64,000 nt of DNA from Deltaproteobacteria bacterium. GTDB taxonomy: Bacteria; Myxococcota_A; UBA9160; UBA6930. A program made the translations under genes and the position numbers. A model generated the notes under the pieces. That model was not told the DNA's origin. It saw nothing but the letters and a program-made list of their open reading frames with translations, and ran no database searches. How positions within the stretch are numbered: position 1 is the stretch's first letter; each line of letters opens with the position of its first letter. Shown one piece after another: positions 164 through 15,474 of the stretch. The DNA lies in NCBI GenBank assembly GCA_028817435.1, contig JAPPPQ010000015.1:1-64000 (forward strand), in the 5' to 3' direction.

Positions 164-1024
164 TCATCGCTGCATTGGCGTTGCGCTCGCCAGCGGCGGC
201 GGATTGCGCGGAGGGCGCGGGTGGTGGGCCAAAAACTCCACCGCCAGCTGGCTGTAAGCCAGCGCGCCCCGGGATTGCGCATCGTAAAGCTGAATGGGCA
301 GGCCGTGGCTCGGCGCTTCGCTCAGGCGGACATTGCGGGGAATCACCGCCTCGAAGACCCCCGCGCCGCCGCTGCCGAAATGGCGGCGCGCCTCGTCCTC
401 CACCTGCCGGCTCAGGTTGGCGCGGTGGTCCACCATGGTGAGGACAATGCCCTCCCGGGCCAGGCCGGGGTTCCAGGTAGCCTGCACGCGCTCGATGGTG
501 GCGAGCAGCCGGGTCAGCCCTTCCAGGGCGTAATATTCGCATTGTAGGGGAATCAACACAGAATTGGCCGCTGTAAGGGCGTTTAGCGTGAGCATACCCA
601 GGGAAGGCGGGCAATCCACCAGGATGAAATCGTAGAGGGGGAGCGCCTCGGCCAGCGCATTGCGGAAGCGATGCTCCCGCTCGGCCACGGTCACCAGCTC
701 GATTTCCGCCCCGGCCAGATCGCCGCTGGCGGGCAGCAGGTGCAGGTGGCCGATGCCGGTGGCGGCGATGGTCTCGCGCAGCCCGGCTGCGCCCGAGAGC
801 ACATCGTAGATTTGCCGCGCCGGGGCGCTGGCGCCCAGCGCGCTGCTGGCATTGGCCTGCGGATCCAGATCCACCAGCAGCGTGGCGCGCTCCAGCGCGG
901 CCAGGCTGGCCGCCAGATTGACCGCCGTGGTGGTCTTGCCGACTCCACCCTTCTGATTGGCGACTGCGCTCACCCAGGCGCGCTCGCCCGCGCCCTCCGC
1001 GCCGCCGCCGCCGTTCCACTCCAC
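164..1024 (-). CDS. parA: ParA/Soj family chromosome-partitioning ATPase
   Basis: Deviant Walker A KGGVGKTTTAVNLAA, DLDPQANAS, VDCPPSLGMLTLNAL, VRLSEAPSHGLP. Confidence 0.95.
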   Translation of the reverse strand: MEWNGGGGAEGAGERAWVSAVANQKGGVGKTTTAVNLAASLAALERATLLVDLDPQANASSALGASAPARQIYDVLSGAAGLRETIAATGIGHLHLLPASGDLAGAEIELVTVAEREHRFRNALAEALPLYDFILVDCPPSLGMLTLNALTAANSVLIPLQCEYYALEGLTRLLATIERVQATWNPGLAREGIVLTMVDHRANLSRQVEDEARRHFGSGGAGVFEAVIPRNVRLSEAPSHGLPIQLYDAQSRGALAYSQLAVEFLAHHPRPPRNPPPLASATPMQR

Positions 1025-1083
1025 GCCCCTGCCCTCCCGCGCTATCTCTTACCACGCCGGGAAGGCGCAACGCTACCGGGCGA

Positions 1084-1099
1084 TGTTTCACGGGGAACA
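1084..1099 (-). promoter_or_regulatory. parS-like site 1 (TGTTCCCCGTGAAACA on minus strand)
   Basis: + strand TGTTTCACGGGGAACA; one mismatch per half-site from TGTTNCACGTGNAACA consensus; 7 nt upstream of the permease ATG. Confidence 0.65.
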
Positions 1100-1105
1100 C
1101 CATCC

Positions 1106-2614
1106 ATGGACGCTTTCTTGCCCGCGCTTCCGCTGCTGGTCCTGATAACGGCCCTGGTGCTGAAACGGGGGGCGGTGGTGAGCTCCCTGCTCGGCAGCGC
1201 GGCGGTGCTGGCGGTCATTTGGCTGGACCGGCGCTACGCCCTGGATTTCGCCGCGGCGCTTTCGACCGATCTGCCGGTGGTGTTGATTCTGACCCTTTCC
1301 GTGGCCCTGGTCATTGTGCCGGGGCAAATTCTCAATGCGCTGCTGCAGGCCTCGGGCACCTTGGCGGCCATCGGCGCGCGCATTGAAAGCCTGCGGCTGT
1401 CGCGCGTCAAGATGGCGTCAATCCTTATTCTGGGTGTGGCACCAATGCTCGAATCTCTGACCGGCTTCGGGGTCTCGCTGTTTTTCACGGTGCCGGTGCT
1501 GGTGCGGTTGTTCAGCCTCAAAAAGGCGCTGCTGCTGTCGCTGCTGAGCATGAACATTATGCCGTGGGGCACGCTGGCGCTGGCCACCTCGGTCGGCGCG
1601 CAGCTTTCCGGCGCGCCGTTGCGGGAGTTGGCGGTGATGAGCAGTTGGACGAGTTTCGCGGTTTTCCCGGCGCTGGGGTTGCTGATATTCGTCATTTGCC
1701 GCGAGAAAAACTCGCGCTCAACGCCCGACCTGCTCTACCCGCTGCTGGCCGGTGGGGTGTTGTCGTGCTGCCTGGTTTTCTACAACGCCTTCGCCACCCC
1801 GGAACTGGCCGGCGTCTGTGCCGGCTTCACCACCGCCGCGCTGGCGCTGCTCGCCGAAATTTTGCGGCGCGGGCCGGGCCTGCTTGCCGCGCCAGCGGCG
1901 GGCGCGGGCGAAACCCGCAGCGCGCAGCCGCTGTGGCGCCTGCTGGCCCCGTATCTGGCGCTCATTGCGCTCATCGGCTTGTCCCGAATCACCGCAGTCA
2001 ACGACGCATTGCAACGCCTCTTCAGCCTCGAAAGCGGCGGTGTCCAATTGTTTGTGTTCACCAGCCCGGGGGTGTTTATTTTTCTCACCGTCCTGCTGAT
2101 GCGCGCGTGGTCGGCCGCTTACCGCGGTCACCCCGGCGTCTTCCTGGGCGGCGTCAAGCGCGCCGCCTATCCGGTGGCCGGCATCATGCTGTTCGTGGTC
2201 TTCGCCCAACTTCACCGCGCCAGCGGCCTGTTCGAAGATCTGGCCGCGCGGCTCGTCGCCCTGAGCGCGTCGGAGATTACTTTCGCCGCGCCGCTGCTCG
2301 GCATGCTGAGCGGCTACGCCACCGGCTCCAATGTCGGCGGCAATGCGCTGTTCATGGCACTGCAGAGCGATGCCGGCCGCCATTTCGAGCACGCCCTGGT
2401 ATTCGCCGCGCTGCAAAACAGCGCCTCCGGCCACGCGGTCTTTCTGTCGCTCCCCATCATTCTGCTGACGCTTTCCATCGCCGCCGCTGGCAGCGGGGAC
2501 GCTGACCGCAGCCGGGTTCACGCCTGCCAAACCTGGCTCATCCGCCGCGCCCTGCTGTGCGCCCCGCTCATCTACGCCGCGCTGGTAATTCCGTTCCATC
2601 TGCTGATTCGCTAG
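1106..2614 (+). CDS. L-lactate permease (LctP family)
   Basis: Multi-TM protein starting MDAFLPALPLLVLITALVLKRG; APMLESLTGFGVSLFF motif. Upstream part of the ORF overlaps parA and is not coding. Confidence 0.85.
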   Translation: MDAFLPALPLLVLITALVLKRGAVVSSLLGSAAVLAVIWLDRRYALDFAAALSTDLPVVLILTLSVALVIVPGQILNALLQASGTLAAIGARIESLRLSRVKMASILILGVAPMLESLTGFGVSLFFTVPVLVRLFSLKKALLLSLLSMNIMPWGTLALATSVGAQLSGAPLRELAVMSSWTSFAVFPALGLLIFVICREKNSRSTPDLLYPLLAGGVLSCCLVFYNAFATPELAGVCAGFTTAALALLAEILRRGPGLLAAPAAGAGETRSAQPLWRLLAPYLALIALIGLSRITAVNDALQRLFSLESGGVQLFVFTSPGVFIFLTVLLMRAWSAAYRGHPGVFLGGVKRAAYPVAGIMLFVVFAQLHRASGLFEDLAARLVALSASEITFAAPLLGMLSGYATGSNVGGNALFMALQSDAGRHFEHALVFAALQNSASGHAVFLSLPIILLTLSIAAAGSGDADRSRVHACQTWLIRRALLCAPLIYAALVIPFHLLIR

Positions 2615-2656
2615 TTTGCGCCCGCACGCCGCATCACTGAACGAGGAGGAAGCGCC

Positions 2657-3463
2657 ATGAGGAACCGGAACCTTTTCGCCTTGGCCTTGCTGCCCTGGCT
2701 GCTGTGGGCCGCAACCCCGTCCGCCGCCGCCGCGCAGAACTTGGAAGAGGCGCTGGCCGGCGATCACCGCTCGGCAGAGAACGCCGCCCGCGACCAATAC
2801 CGCCACCCGGCAGAGACCCTGCGCTTCTTCGGCCTGCAAGAGAATCTGCGGGTGCTGGAGATCGCCCCCGGCGGCGGCTGGTACACCGAGGTGCTCGCGC
2901 CGTTTTTGGCGCAGAAGGGGGAGCTGACCGTCGCCTCCAGCGGCAACTACAGCAGCTACAACGACAAGCTGACCGGCGACCCCGGCACCTATGGCCGCGT
3001 GCGCGTGGTGCCCTTCTCCCGCAAGCGCCTGCTGCGCAAGCCCCGCTACCTGGAAGAAGTGGCCGAAGGCTCCATGGACATGGTGCTGACCTTCCGCAAC
3101 AGCCACAACTGGATTCGCCGCGGGGCGGCCCCGCGCATTTACCGGGCCTTCTTCCGCGTGCTGCGACCGGGCGGCACCTTGGGCGTGGTGCAGCACCGCG
3201 CCGCGCCCGGCGCAGATGCAGAAACCAGCACAGAGCAGGGCTATGTGCCGGAGGATTACCTGGTGCAGTTGGCCGAACAAGCCGGCTTCCGCCTGCAAGA
3301 GCGCTCCGATATCAACGCCAACCCCCGCGACACCCGCGACCACCCCAAAGGCGTATGGACCCTCCCCCCCGTCCTGCGCCTGAAGGACCAGGACCGCGAC
3401 AAATACCTCGCCATCGGCGAAAGCGACCGCATGACTCTGCGCTTCACCAAGCCCATGCCGTAG
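2657..3463 (+). CDS. Predicted exported class I SAM-dependent methyltransferase (COG4798-like)
   Basis: Signal peptide MRNRNLFALALLPWLLWAATPSAAAA; RVLEIAPGGGWYTEVLAPFL; RBS gaggagg upstream. Confidence 0.8.
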   Translation: MRNRNLFALALLPWLLWAATPSAAAAQNLEEALAGDHRSAENAARDQYRHPAETLRFFGLQENLRVLEIAPGGGWYTEVLAPFLAQKGELTVASSGNYSSYNDKLTGDPGTYGRVRVVPFSRKRLLRKPRYLEEVAEGSMDMVLTFRNSHNWIRRGAAPRIYRAFFRVLRPGGTLGVVQHRAAPGADAETSTEQGYVPEDYLVQLAEQAGFRLQERSDINANPRDTRDHPKGVWTLPPVLRLKDQDRDKYLAIGESDRMTLRFTKPMP

Positions 3464-3491
3464 GGGCAGCGCCAGCCCCGCCGCCCCAGCG

Positions 3492-3513
3492 CGGTGTGTT
3501 CCCCGTGGAACCC
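3492..3513. repeat. 22-bp direct repeat, copy 1, containing parS-like site 2 (TGTTCCCCGTGGAACC, 3497-3512)
   Basis: CGGTGTGTTCCCCGTGGAACCC; second copy at 4782-4803 with one mismatch. Confidence 0.85.
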
Positions 3514-3542
3514 CCCCGTCCGTAACCACCAGGAGAGCTTCC

Positions 3543-4736
3543 ATGGCTGACCTCGCATCTCTGCTTGACAGCGTACGGCTCCACTTGGGCGATTGGGTCG
3601 AAGTCTTCACAGCCAACCTCGAGTATCTGTTGCTTTCCGCTGTTCTCGTTTTCCCTGTCTTCGTCACATGGCTGTGGCTACCACTACGCCGCCAATTTTG
3701 GAGCCGCCGGTTTTGGGTCAGAATCAACTGCCGCCACCCTAGTGTCCAGAGCTATCTGCCCCAAGAGGTCGATAGGTATATAGCTTCAGTAGTAGATTCA
3801 GCAAAGCAATCAGGCAAGATGGCGAGCTTCATTTGGGCGGCAATCACAGTCGCCTTGTCCCTCGGCGTCTTTCAGCAGGGCGTTGTCTTTGCGCGATTCA
3901 TTGACCGCAGCCTACACGGCCTTTTCGCCCTTGTGGCTGGAGCGGTTGTATGGGTTGCAACTAGGTGGCTGTGGATGCGCGCCCCACTGTGTATCAAAGA
4001 GCGGATCGAAGGAGAGCGGAAGCGTTGGATTGATCTTCGGGAAATGGGATATGACGGGTGGAAAGGGTGGGCAGTGTGGGAATTTGAAGATGCAAAATTG
4101 CTGAATCAACGCAAACCTGCCCTGCGTGCTGGCGATGAGACAACCGCTTGGGAAATGCTCAAAAGTCCACTAGAGAAATCCTTCTGGGAGATACTCATGG
4201 AAAGGCGTGTGCCACATATCTACCAGCTTGTGATACCGACCCCAGAGGGCCCGGGAGATCACCGCCGCCTAGATTTCGCATTGCTTGATCCGAAGACTGG
4301 TGAGCCTGTGCTCGGAATCGAAACCGATGAATGGCGTCATTTTGTGGACAAGGACCTTCAATGGAATTTGAAACGGCACGATTTCGTGGGCAAGAATAGG
4401 TGCGAGAAGTGCAATGGCCACAATGGCCGGTGTGATTTCACGAAAAACGCCCCCGACGATGATTTCAAACGGGAATTGGAGATATGGAATGAGGTTGGCA
4501 TCCCGATATACAGAATTCCCGGTGCATACTGGTTTAGAGGATTGGCCCCCAACGACACGAAGCACCCAGAGAAAATCAAAGAAAACCAGCAACGGATATT
4601 GGACGTTGCACTGCGAGAGCGAGACCGGGTTATCAGAGACTCAATCGCCAAAACGAAACAGAGGCATATCCGGAAAGAGAAACGGAAGGAGGCCATGTTG
4701 CAATGGCTAACACGCCTTCTGCGCCGCCAGCAGTAG
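3543..4736 (+). CDS. Membrane-anchored PD-(D/E)XK/DUF559-like nuclease-domain protein
   Basis: N-terminal hydrophobic helices (YLLLSAVLVFPVFVTWLWL, FIWAAITVALSLGVF, LFALVAGAVVWVATRWLW), then LEKSFWEIL...RRLDFALLDPKTGEPVLGIETDEWRHF...GIPIYRIPG, resembling a PD-(D/E)XK core; Cys cluster RCEKCNGHNGRC. Markedly lower GC than its neighbours. Confidence 0.6.
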   Translation: MADLASLLDSVRLHLGDWVEVFTANLEYLLLSAVLVFPVFVTWLWLPLRRQFWSRRFWVRINCRHPSVQSYLPQEVDRYIASVVDSAKQSGKMASFIWAAITVALSLGVFQQGVVFARFIDRSLHGLFALVAGAVVWVATRWLWMRAPLCIKERIEGERKRWIDLREMGYDGWKGWAVWEFEDAKLLNQRKPALRAGDETTAWEMLKSPLEKSFWEILMERRVPHIYQLVIPTPEGPGDHRRLDFALLDPKTGEPVLGIETDEWRHFVDKDLQWNLKRHDFVGKNRCEKCNGHNGRCDFTKNAPDDDFKRELEIWNEVGIPIYRIPGAYWFRGLAPNDTKHPEKIKENQQRILDVALRERDRVIRDSIAKTKQRHIRKEKRKEAMLQWLTRLLRRQQ

Positions 4737-4781
4737 TTGTCTTGGTGTCTGTGCAGTGAGGCGATTGGAAATTTGTTTCGC

Positions 4782-4803
4782 CGGTGTGTTCCCCATGGAA
4801 CCC
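4782..4803. repeat. 22-bp direct repeat, copy 2, containing parS-like site 3 (TGTTCCCCATGGAACC, 4787-4802)
   Basis: CGGTGTGTTCCCCATGGAACCC; 21/22 identical to 3492-3513. Confidence 0.85.
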
Positions 4804-4804
4804 T

Positions 4805-5386
4805 CTACTCCCGCTCAGGCACGGTGTAGGGGGTGAGGCGGTGGAGTATGGGGGCGAGGGTGGGCTTGTTTTGGGCGATTTCGGCGGGGGTGAGGCCCCG
4901 CACTTCGTGGGGAAACACCAGCCAATCGGCGGTCTGGTGTATGTGGTAATCCGGGGCACGGCGGGTGCGGTTGTTGCAGGGCTTGAACCACGGGGCGGCG
5001 ATGCGGATGTCGCGCGGTGTGTCGTCTCCCGCCCGGGATTGCAGCTCGTCCAGCAGCGCAGCAACGCTCAGGCCGGTGTCGTAGATGTCGTCCACAATCA
5101 GCATGGCATCGGTGGCGCGCACGCGCCGGGCCACTTCGCCCAAGCCGCGCACCTCCACGGCCCCGCCGCGCTTGCCCATGCCTCGATAGGAAGATGTGCC
5201 GATGGCGAAGTAGTCGGCGCAGATTCCGCAGTGTTGCAACAGCTCGTGCACGGCAATGCCCACTGGCGCGCCGCCGCGCCAGATCGCGGCGAGCCATTTG
5301 GGGCGGAAGCCGCTCTCAATCACCCGCGCGCCCAGCTCGAAGGAATCCCGCAGCAACTCTTCGGCGGTGATGTGGCGCTTCTGCAA
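4805..5386 (-). CDS. Phosphoribosyltransferase (hypoxanthine/xanthine type)
   Basis: PRPP-binding motif AMLIVDDIYDTGLSV; WLAAIWRGGAPVG. Confidence 0.85.
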   Translation of the reverse strand: MQKRHITAEELLRDSFELGARVIESGFRPKWLAAIWRGGAPVGIAVHELLQHCGICADYFAIGTSSYRGMGKRGGAVEVRGLGEVARRVRATDAMLIVDDIYDTGLSVAALLDELQSRAGDDTPRDIRIAAPWFKPCNNRTRRAPDYHIHQTADWLVFPHEVRGLTPAEIAQNKPTLAPILHRLTPYTVPERE

Positions 5387-5388
5387 AG

Positions 5389-5404
5389 TGTTCCCCGTGA
5401 AATG
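5389..5404 (+). promoter_or_regulatory. parS-like site 4 (TGTTCCCCGTGAAATG)
   Basis: Shares TGTTCCCCGTGRAA with the other three sites; sits exactly between the PRT start and the jag stop. Confidence 0.55.
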
Positions 5405-6382
5405 CTACCTGCCGCGCGGGCTCAGGCGGGGGGGGAGGGATTCGGAGCGGGCGCGGGCGTCGGCGAACTCGGGGGCGGCTTCGGGGACTACGAGCACCTG
5501 GCGGTAGTCGCCTTCGCCGATGCTGGTGGTGGCGATGCCGGGTGCGCCGCGCAGGGCTTCGTGGATGCTGCGGCGGTCCTGGCTGTTCATCGGGTCCAGG
5601 GCCACGCTGCGGCCGCTGCTGCGGGCGCGCTCAGAGGCGCGCTCGGCCAGCCGCGCCAGGTAGTCCTGGCGCTTTTCGCGGTCGCCTTCCACATCCAGCA
5701 CCACGCGGCGGGGCGGGCCAGCGGGGGCGGACGAGCCCTCCGGCCCGGCCTGCTCGCTCTGCACGCGGGCGGCCTGGTTTGCCAGAAGCTGCAGCGCCTC
5801 CACGGCGCGGCCTCCCCCGGCGGCCAGCGCGCGGGCCGCGGGGCCTTCCAGCAAAATCACATCCAGGCCCTGCTCGGCCCGCTGGCCAATCTGGAAGGGG
5901 CCGAGGTCCATGCGCTCCAGTGCGCCGCGCACAAACTCGCCGGTGGGGCCCAGCTCGCCCTGGGGCGCGCCCAGCGAGGGCTCTGCAGATGCAGGCGCGG
6001 CTTCCCCGCGCACCGCCTCCCCGCGCTCATCGCTGCCATGCTCATCGCCGTATTGTGGGCGGCGGCGGCCTCCGCGGTCGTCGCGCTCGCGCCTGCCCCC
6101 GCCGCGCGGGCGCTCGCGGGATTCGCTGCGGCCGCGGCGCTCCCGGGGTGCGCCGCGCTCGTAGCCGCGCGGGCCGCGGCCGCGCTCCGCCGAATGGGAC
6201 TGGCGGCGGGCGGCGCTGGGCACGGCCACAATCAGCGCGCGGTCGCCCAGGCCGGCGGCCTCCCTGGGGCTGCCGGTGGTCAGGTCGGCCTCCGAGCAGC
6301 CGAAGAAGCTGCAGGCCTCGGCAATGGCGGCGGCAGTGCTGTCTGCGAAGAATTCCCGGGCTTCAGATCTGGGGTCGAACAT
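5405..6382 (-). CDS. jag: Jag/KhpB-like RNA-binding protein (Jag-N, Arg-rich linker, KH, R3H)
   Basis: Directly downstream of yidC; R3H-like C-terminus (ALDPMNSQDRRSIHEAL...), KH-like GQRAEQGLDVILLEG. Confidence 0.85.
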   Translation of the reverse strand: MFDPRSEAREFFADSTAAAIAEACSFFGCSEADLTTGSPREAAGLGDRALIVAVPSAARRQSHSAERGRGPRGYERGAPRERRGRSESRERPRGGGRRERDDRGGRRRPQYGDEHGSDERGEAVRGEAAPASAEPSLGAPQGELGPTGEFVRGALERMDLGPFQIGQRAEQGLDVILLEGPAARALAAGGGRAVEALQLLANQAARVQSEQAGPEGSSAPAGPPRRVVLDVEGDREKRQDYLARLAERASERARSSGRSVALDPMNSQDRRSIHEALRGAPGIATTSIGEGDYRQVLVVPEAAPEFADARARSESLPPRLSPRGR

Positions 6383-8403: not shown

Positions 8404-8810
8404 CGCCGGAGCAGTCCGGCTAGCTCCCGGGCGATGCCATCAGCGCTGAGCCGCGCAGCGCCGGGGCGCGCAATCAAAACCAGATCGGTCCCGGGAGGCA
8501 GGGCGGCCCGGCGGCGGCGATACCACTCGCGCAACCGGCGCTTCACGCGATTGCGCGCTACGGCATTGCCGACGCGGCGGCTCACCGCCAAACCGAGACC
8601 CCCGCGGGCGGGTTGCGCAGTTGCGCCCGTGGCAGAGCGGGAAGGCGCGATCTGCGCGACAAAATGCGCGCTGCTGTGCCGACGGCCCGCGCGCCGCACG
8701 CGGATGAAATCCTTGGAGCTGCGCAGCCTGTCCGCCCGCCGGAGCTTCTCATCCCCGCGCGCTGCGCTGCGGTCGGCACTCCCTGCGGGGCAACCCGCCT
8801 CCGGCAACAC
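8400..8810 (-). CDS. rnpA: Ribonuclease P protein component
   Basis: [27 protein letters not shown]; between rpmH and yidD. Confidence 0.95.
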
Positions 8811-8812
8811 GG

Positions 8813-8962
8813 CTACTTCACGCCGACGGAGACAGAGAGGCGCTTGCGCCCCTTCGCGCGGCGGCTCTTGAGGACGGCCCGGCCCGAACGGCTGCTCATG
8901 CGCGCCCGAAACCCGTGAGTCCGCTTGCGGCGAATGCGGCTCGGCTGATAGGTTCGCTTCAT
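8813..8962 (-). CDS. rpmH: 50S ribosomal protein L34 (absent from supplied ORF track because <60 aa)
   Basis: Translated by eye: [49 protein letters not shown]. Confidence 0.97.
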
Positions 8963-9241
8963 CGCAGGCATCCTACCCCACGCCGCCGCCCGCCGTCAAG
9001 CCCCCGCCCCCGGGGGCGCCCCACCGACGATAAATTTCACTCCGGCTGCATTTTTCTGTCGCGGATGGCCATTGCGATGGTGTATTCTCTACTCATCACC
9101 GGGGGAGGGGCAGATCCGACAAAAGGCGCGCGCATCGGGCGCGGGTGCTTTTGTAGAAGCGGCAAGGGTTTCGCTTCACTTTGTCGGATGTCGGCTGTTG
9201 TGGCTGCCTCTTCTGAATTGCAACACGGGGGAAATAAAGAA
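8963..9241. other. rpmH-dnaN intergenic region; candidate replication origin/regulatory region
   Basis: Divergent intergenic gap with a locally AT-richer stretch (~9030-9085) and a perfect 10-bp inverted repeat ATCCGACAAA (9114-9123) / TTTGTCGGAT (9180-9189). I found no consensus TTATCCACA DnaA box. Confidence 0.35.

Positions 9242-15474
<6,233 letters not shown>

Follow-up and report, generated by a model that had tools for sequence, protein, structure and literature searches.

An AT-rich gene for a predicted membrane-anchored, DUF2726-related protein within a native cluster of parS-like sites of a deltaproteobacterium

Between parA and jag, in a contig of a Deltaproteobacteria bacterium, lies a gene of 397 codons (3543–4736) that is AT-richer than its surroundings and is bracketed by two direct repeats of 22 bp containing parS-like sites. 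A first-pass annotation had taken it for an acquired cassette, possibly a nuclease of defence or DNA surveillance, inserted at a ParB site or having duplicated it. The locus, analysed here in a stretch of 64 kb (the window), raises two questions: what kind of protein does the gene encode, and are the repeats the trace of its arrival?

Composition and surroundings of the gene

The features of the locus are listed in Table 1. As a whole, the gene has a GC content of 52.8% vs. a mean of 69.4% for the window, the values at its three codon positions being 59.5, 40.2 and 58.8%. Compared, as was done here, with the genes of the 64-kb window only, its third-position value (GC3) is well below the 82–88% found in parA, lacP (permease), the methyltransferase and phosphoribosyltransferase (HPRT) genes, yidC and gyrB, typical neighbours being at about 84%; jag, with a GC3 of 61%, is atypical in all three codon positions. 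The lowest-GC 1-kb windows of the whole 64 kb fall inside the gene. The gene is compositionally foreign, as had been noticed at first reading, unlike the permease, methyltransferase and phosphoribosyltransferase genes, which are of native composition. It starts with ATG, and the AGGAG upstream of it is a good ribosome-binding sequence.

Table 1. Features of the locus, with their positions in the window
Feature	Position	Strand	Basis
parA	164..1024	-	Pfam AAA_31/CbiA
parS-like site 1, TGTTTCACGGGGAACA, adjoining parA	1084..1099	.	palindrome scan
methyltransferase-like exported protein, native composition	2657..3463	+	weak Methyltransf_25/11, under cut-off
parS-like site 2, TGTTCCCCGTGGAACC (left repeat)	3497..3512	.	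palindrome scan
RBS-like AGGAG	3531..3535	+	sequence; 7 nt 5' of the ATG of gene 3543–4736
gene for predicted membrane-anchored, DUF2726-like (REase-fold) protein, 397 aa	3543..4736	+	ORF, GC 52.8%/GC3 58.8%, hhalign 88–96%, no close homologue
hydrophobic segment 1, about residues 28–48	3624..3686	+	Kyte-Doolittle peak 2.15
hydrophobic segments 2 and 3, about residues 92–118 and 120–145	3816..3977	+	Kyte-Doolittle peaks 1.72 and 1.67
DUF2726-like domain, about residues 206–327	4158..4523	+	D244, E260-x-D262, H266, GIPIYRI 319–325
C-x2-C-x2-H-x3-C motif (C287, C290, H293, C297)	4401..4433	+	motif positions, domain alignment
parS-like site 3, TGTTCCCCATGGAACC (right repeat); one departure, CATG for CGTG	4787..4802	.	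palindrome scan
phosphoribosyltransferase, native composition	4805..5386	-	Pfam Pribosyltran
parS-like site 4, TGTTCCCCGTGAAATG, phosphoribosyltransferase/jag intergenic	5389..5404	.	site search in the window

Concerning the neighbours, the nearest named relatives of ParA are from Deltaproteobacteria/Proteobacteria MAGs (57–64% identity), the methyltransferase-like protein has homologues at 47–56% in relatives, and a clear match to the phosphoribosyltransferase was found in the window's own genome only. Positions 1–54, at the contig end, are a perfect 54-bp inverted copy of positions 276–329; these first bases, a fold-back of the end of the parA gene followed by an apparent parB start, are probably an assembly artefact. 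Further along (8800–10431), dnaA is absent between rnpA/rpmH and dnaN, and recF between dnaN and gyrB; gyrB is followed by gyrA, and dnaN also lies near gyrB in two more distant MAGs (L023 and L024).

Relationship of the encoded protein to DUF2726

Searches of Pfam, NCBIfam, PADLOC, PHROGs and PDB sequences with the full protein gave no significant match, the PADLOC models of known anti-phage defence included. With the domain alone, DUF2726 (PF10881) was the sole Pfam family at E < 1 (E 0.16), its 12.2 bits missing the gathering cut-off of 24.7; the protein is therefore not filed as a member of that family. Of 299 Pseudomonadota genomes, 74 were found to encode DUF2726 proteins, and 28 domains from its loci in this phylum (L140–L168) were aligned as a reference set. 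Against this alignment, hhalign gave the domain a probability of 88.2% (score 38.2), while 200 shuffled sequences reached at most 3.6% (score 19) and eight other proteins of the window at most 3%. Removal of the cysteine-containing insert raised the probability to 96.3% over 88 columns, the match then reaching the GIP-R motif (GIPIYRIP), and the three choices of insert edges that were tried gave 95.7–96.3%. The match covers the catalytic-type core, with LDFALLDPKTGEPVLGIETDEWRH facing DFVLCD...IELDDSSH of DUF2726, and D244, E260, D262 and H266 align with well-conserved positions of the family (DF, E-D and H). Judging from these profile comparisons, the domain is a distant relative of DUF2726, a family of the restriction-endonuclease (REase) fold. 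Of the nuclease families proposed in the first-pass annotation, DUF2726 is thus the one that held, below its curated cut-off, whereas Vsr and DUF559 found no Pfam match with either the full protein or the domain. This lack of a match sets the protein apart from REase-fold proteins of the Vsr/DUF559 type, which nevertheless have an ExD..H style motif like its own and may be kept as a lead. A published list gives DUF2726, in fusion with AbiJ-NTD3, as a DNase of the REase fold (PMC3710099). A search for DUF2726 in 61 genomes of relatives returned no match, and its controls were empty too, so that absence from these genomes is not demonstrated.

The architecture also recalls DUF2726. Hydropathy agrees with the three or so N-terminal hydrophobic helices reported earlier, the second and third of which likely form a hairpin, and the LDF (243–245), ETD (260–262), H266 and GIPIYRI (319–325) motifs were found where they had been placed, as was C-x2-C-x6-C, which H293 extends to C-x2-C-x2-H-x3-C. 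As in DUF2726 proteins, an N-terminal membrane anchor, an (L)DF...ExD..H core and a G(I/L)P-hydrophobic-R end follow one another in the same order. The protein differs by its three membrane segments (one in DUF2726), its length of 397 aa (159–352 aa in DUF2726) and the position of its CCHC motif, inside the domain, whereas the CxxC found in 14 of the 28 Pseudomonadota proteins is C-terminal to it. An insertion of some 33 residues, flanked by the motif strand and the last helix, contains the CCHC motif, and this loop probably binds zinc. Since a hydrophobic membrane segment precedes the domain in all 28 DUF2726 proteins, a membrane nuclease, whose place next to the partition complex had been called unusual, would be the norm for this kind of protein. 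The 397-aa protein is best interpreted as a divergent relative of the membrane-anchored, REase-fold DUF2726 kind.

Whether such a domain still cuts DNA may be asked, as the core carries ExD in place of ExK, and as the literature found contains no experimental characterisation of DUF2726. The AlphaFold (AF2) models, built without alignment, have too low a quality for the fold to be confirmed (pLDDT 46 for the full protein and 39 for the domain alone); at these pLDDT values of 39–46, helices and strands are predicted in an order that a REase fold would allow, and Foldseek with the domain model gave no match at E < 0.1. The domain might also be catalytically dead, or no nuclease at all, its REase-like fold serving binding or scaffolding in a membrane protein. 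This reading is unlikely but keeps some weight; the fit of D244, E260, D262 and H266 to the conserved DUF2726 positions speaks against it. Quite doubtful is the proposal of a new family with a single known example, i.e. a membrane-anchored nuclease with a zinc loop and a REase fold that would act on DNA at the membrane (e.g. that of entering phages or plasmids) and possibly be positioned by residing in the ParB-bound centromere.

The parS-like sites and the jag–parA interval in relatives

The two 22-bp repeats (3492–3513 and 4782–4803) were both confirmed, with 21 of 22 positions identical, and no further match with up to three mismatches was found in the window, nor any in shuffled sequences. 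They each contain one of four parS-like sites that lie within 4.3 kb, between jag and parA and adjoining the latter; the outer two (1084–1099 and 5389–5404) had been overlooked, and the window holds none beyond these four (1084–5404). Sites 1 and 2 fit the palindromic GTTYCMCGKGRAAC pattern exactly, sites 3 and 4 are each one position off, and all four (starting at 1084, 3497, 4787 and 5389), read in one orientation, have TGTTCCCC(G/A)TG(A/G)AA in common. In a genome-wide palindrome scan, five of the ten rows fell on the three sites that fit the pattern in this contig (1085, 3498 and 4788), the only further palindromic row was C25:5763, and no second cluster appeared; the reversed control gave similar totals, and the evidence is thus the clustering and not the count. 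In Caulobacter, the five strongest parS sites are found within 5 kb (PMC5815017). The sites of the window resemble such a chromosomal ParABS cluster near the origin, with palindromic sites beside parA and genes between the sites.

The DNA 3' of yidC was taken from 13 genomes of the same family. In 12 of them, the fetched stretch contains rsmG (that of L120 stops within jag) and, where the interval was covered (L119, L121–L126 and L129–L131), it reads jag – parS – rsmG – (parS) – parA, with one to five sites. Eight genomes (L119, L121, L122, L124, L125, L126, L129 and L131) have parS sites on both sides of rsmG. The more distant Deltaproteobacteria/Proteobacteria MAGs L023–L026 also have jag – parS – rsmG – parA, and gene 3543–4736 is in none of these jag–parA stretches. 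The window's lineage differs from its relatives in that the permease, methyltransferase, 3543–4736 and phosphoribosyltransferase genes sit in place of rsmG. As a side observation, rsmG is absent from 1024–5405 of the window, though nearly all relatives have it in the jag–parA interval, and L124 has a different accessory ORF (327 aa, signal-peptide-like start; 3664–4644 in the reversed orientation of G006:C262:1-7600) between rsmG and parA and between two parS sites.

With three of the window's four sites used, in both orientations as the sites are palindromic, the longest inter-site match with at most one mismatch was 20–23 bp in the same eight genomes, 16 bp in L123 and 33 bp in L027. Since site pairs of relatives match over 20–23 bp, 21 identical positions out of 22 are the normal look of two parS sites of one genome. 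On sequence grounds, the two copies are members of a native four-site parS cluster, that is, putative centromere sites and not insertion footprints.

The insertion at, or duplication of, a ParB site suggested in the first-pass annotation was accordingly rejected, parS clusters and inter-site matches of 20–23 bp being normal in relatives. A cassette that entered at a parS site, either with a 22-bp target duplication or by recombination between two parS copies, could account for an AT-rich stretch extending nearly exactly from the left to the right copy, for the CGGTG flank that both copies have in common outside the parS core, and for the occurrence of this particular 22-bp pair only in the gene's own genome. 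It is improbable all the same: the eight same-family genomes lack the gene and yet have both the matching sites and an rsmG flanked by parS on either side, a GGTG flank before TGTTCC also occurs at one L125 site, and no integrase, transposase or flanking inverted repeat was seen around the gene. That the protein cooperates with the partition complex, e.g. as a membrane nuclease surveying or anchoring the ParB-bound origin region, is suggested by the location of its gene among four parS-like sites within 4.3 kb but is most improbable, the cluster being present in all examined relatives without the gene, and unrelated genes (rsmG, the L124 ORF) lying likewise between parS sites.

Origin and possible role of the gene

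No homologue of the 397-aa protein was found in 41 genomes of relatives, 91 of the class and 378 of the phylum, nor in 50 genomes behind other loci and 399 Pseudomonadota; these sets overlap partly and amount to about 870 different genomes. Plasmids, phages and one IMG/VR scan yielded none either, nor did scanning viral and genomic contigs for a pattern, a method sensitive to close relatives only. Weak matches (E 5e-4 to 1e-2; L019–L022 and L132–L139) were discarded, those inspected being chance alignments, several of them in stop-containing frames. The neighbours of the gene include no mobile-element or known defence gene.

On these searches, the gene is lineage-specific and probably acquired, its foreign origin being argued from its composition and its absence from relatives and not from an exact empty site. 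Of the cassette first proposed, the acquisition thus stands as likely, but not the repeats as its marks. The relatives examined for an empty site lack the gene, but none offers an exact empty site or an identical junction: their interval has one to five parS sites and holds rsmG, not the permease, methyltransferase and phosphoribosyltransferase genes.

We consider it likely that a single, horizontally acquired gene for a membrane-anchored, DUF2726-related REase-fold protein resides in a native parS cluster. It would have entered an insertion-tolerant stretch of the jag–parA interval that also took up the permease, methyltransferase and phosphoribosyltransferase genes in this lineage. The three N-terminal helices would hold a cytosolic REase-fold domain at the inner membrane, where D244, E260 and D262/H266 may carry out divalent-metal DNA cleavage, the most likely activity in view of the family and architecture. 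The domain would act on DNA near the membrane, its most plausible substrate being foreign DNA that enters the cell, and the protein may have a DNA-degrading or defensive role. The CCHC loop, with a zinc ion, may shape substrate binding. The 22-bp flanks are probably unrelated to the entry or function of the gene, and a functional tie of the protein to ParB is unsupported, since relatives that lack the gene have kept the parS cluster and comparable positions are occupied by other genes. The unusual part of the locus is the gene itself, not its bracketing by parS sites.

Close to the origin, the apparent direct repeats that flank a foreign gene can be mere centromere sites, a trap in the search for mobile elements. 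As for the protein, it would be a divergent and isolated addition to the widespread, uncharacterised group of membrane-anchored, REase-fold DUF2726 proteins, marked by its three membrane segments and internal CCHC motif.
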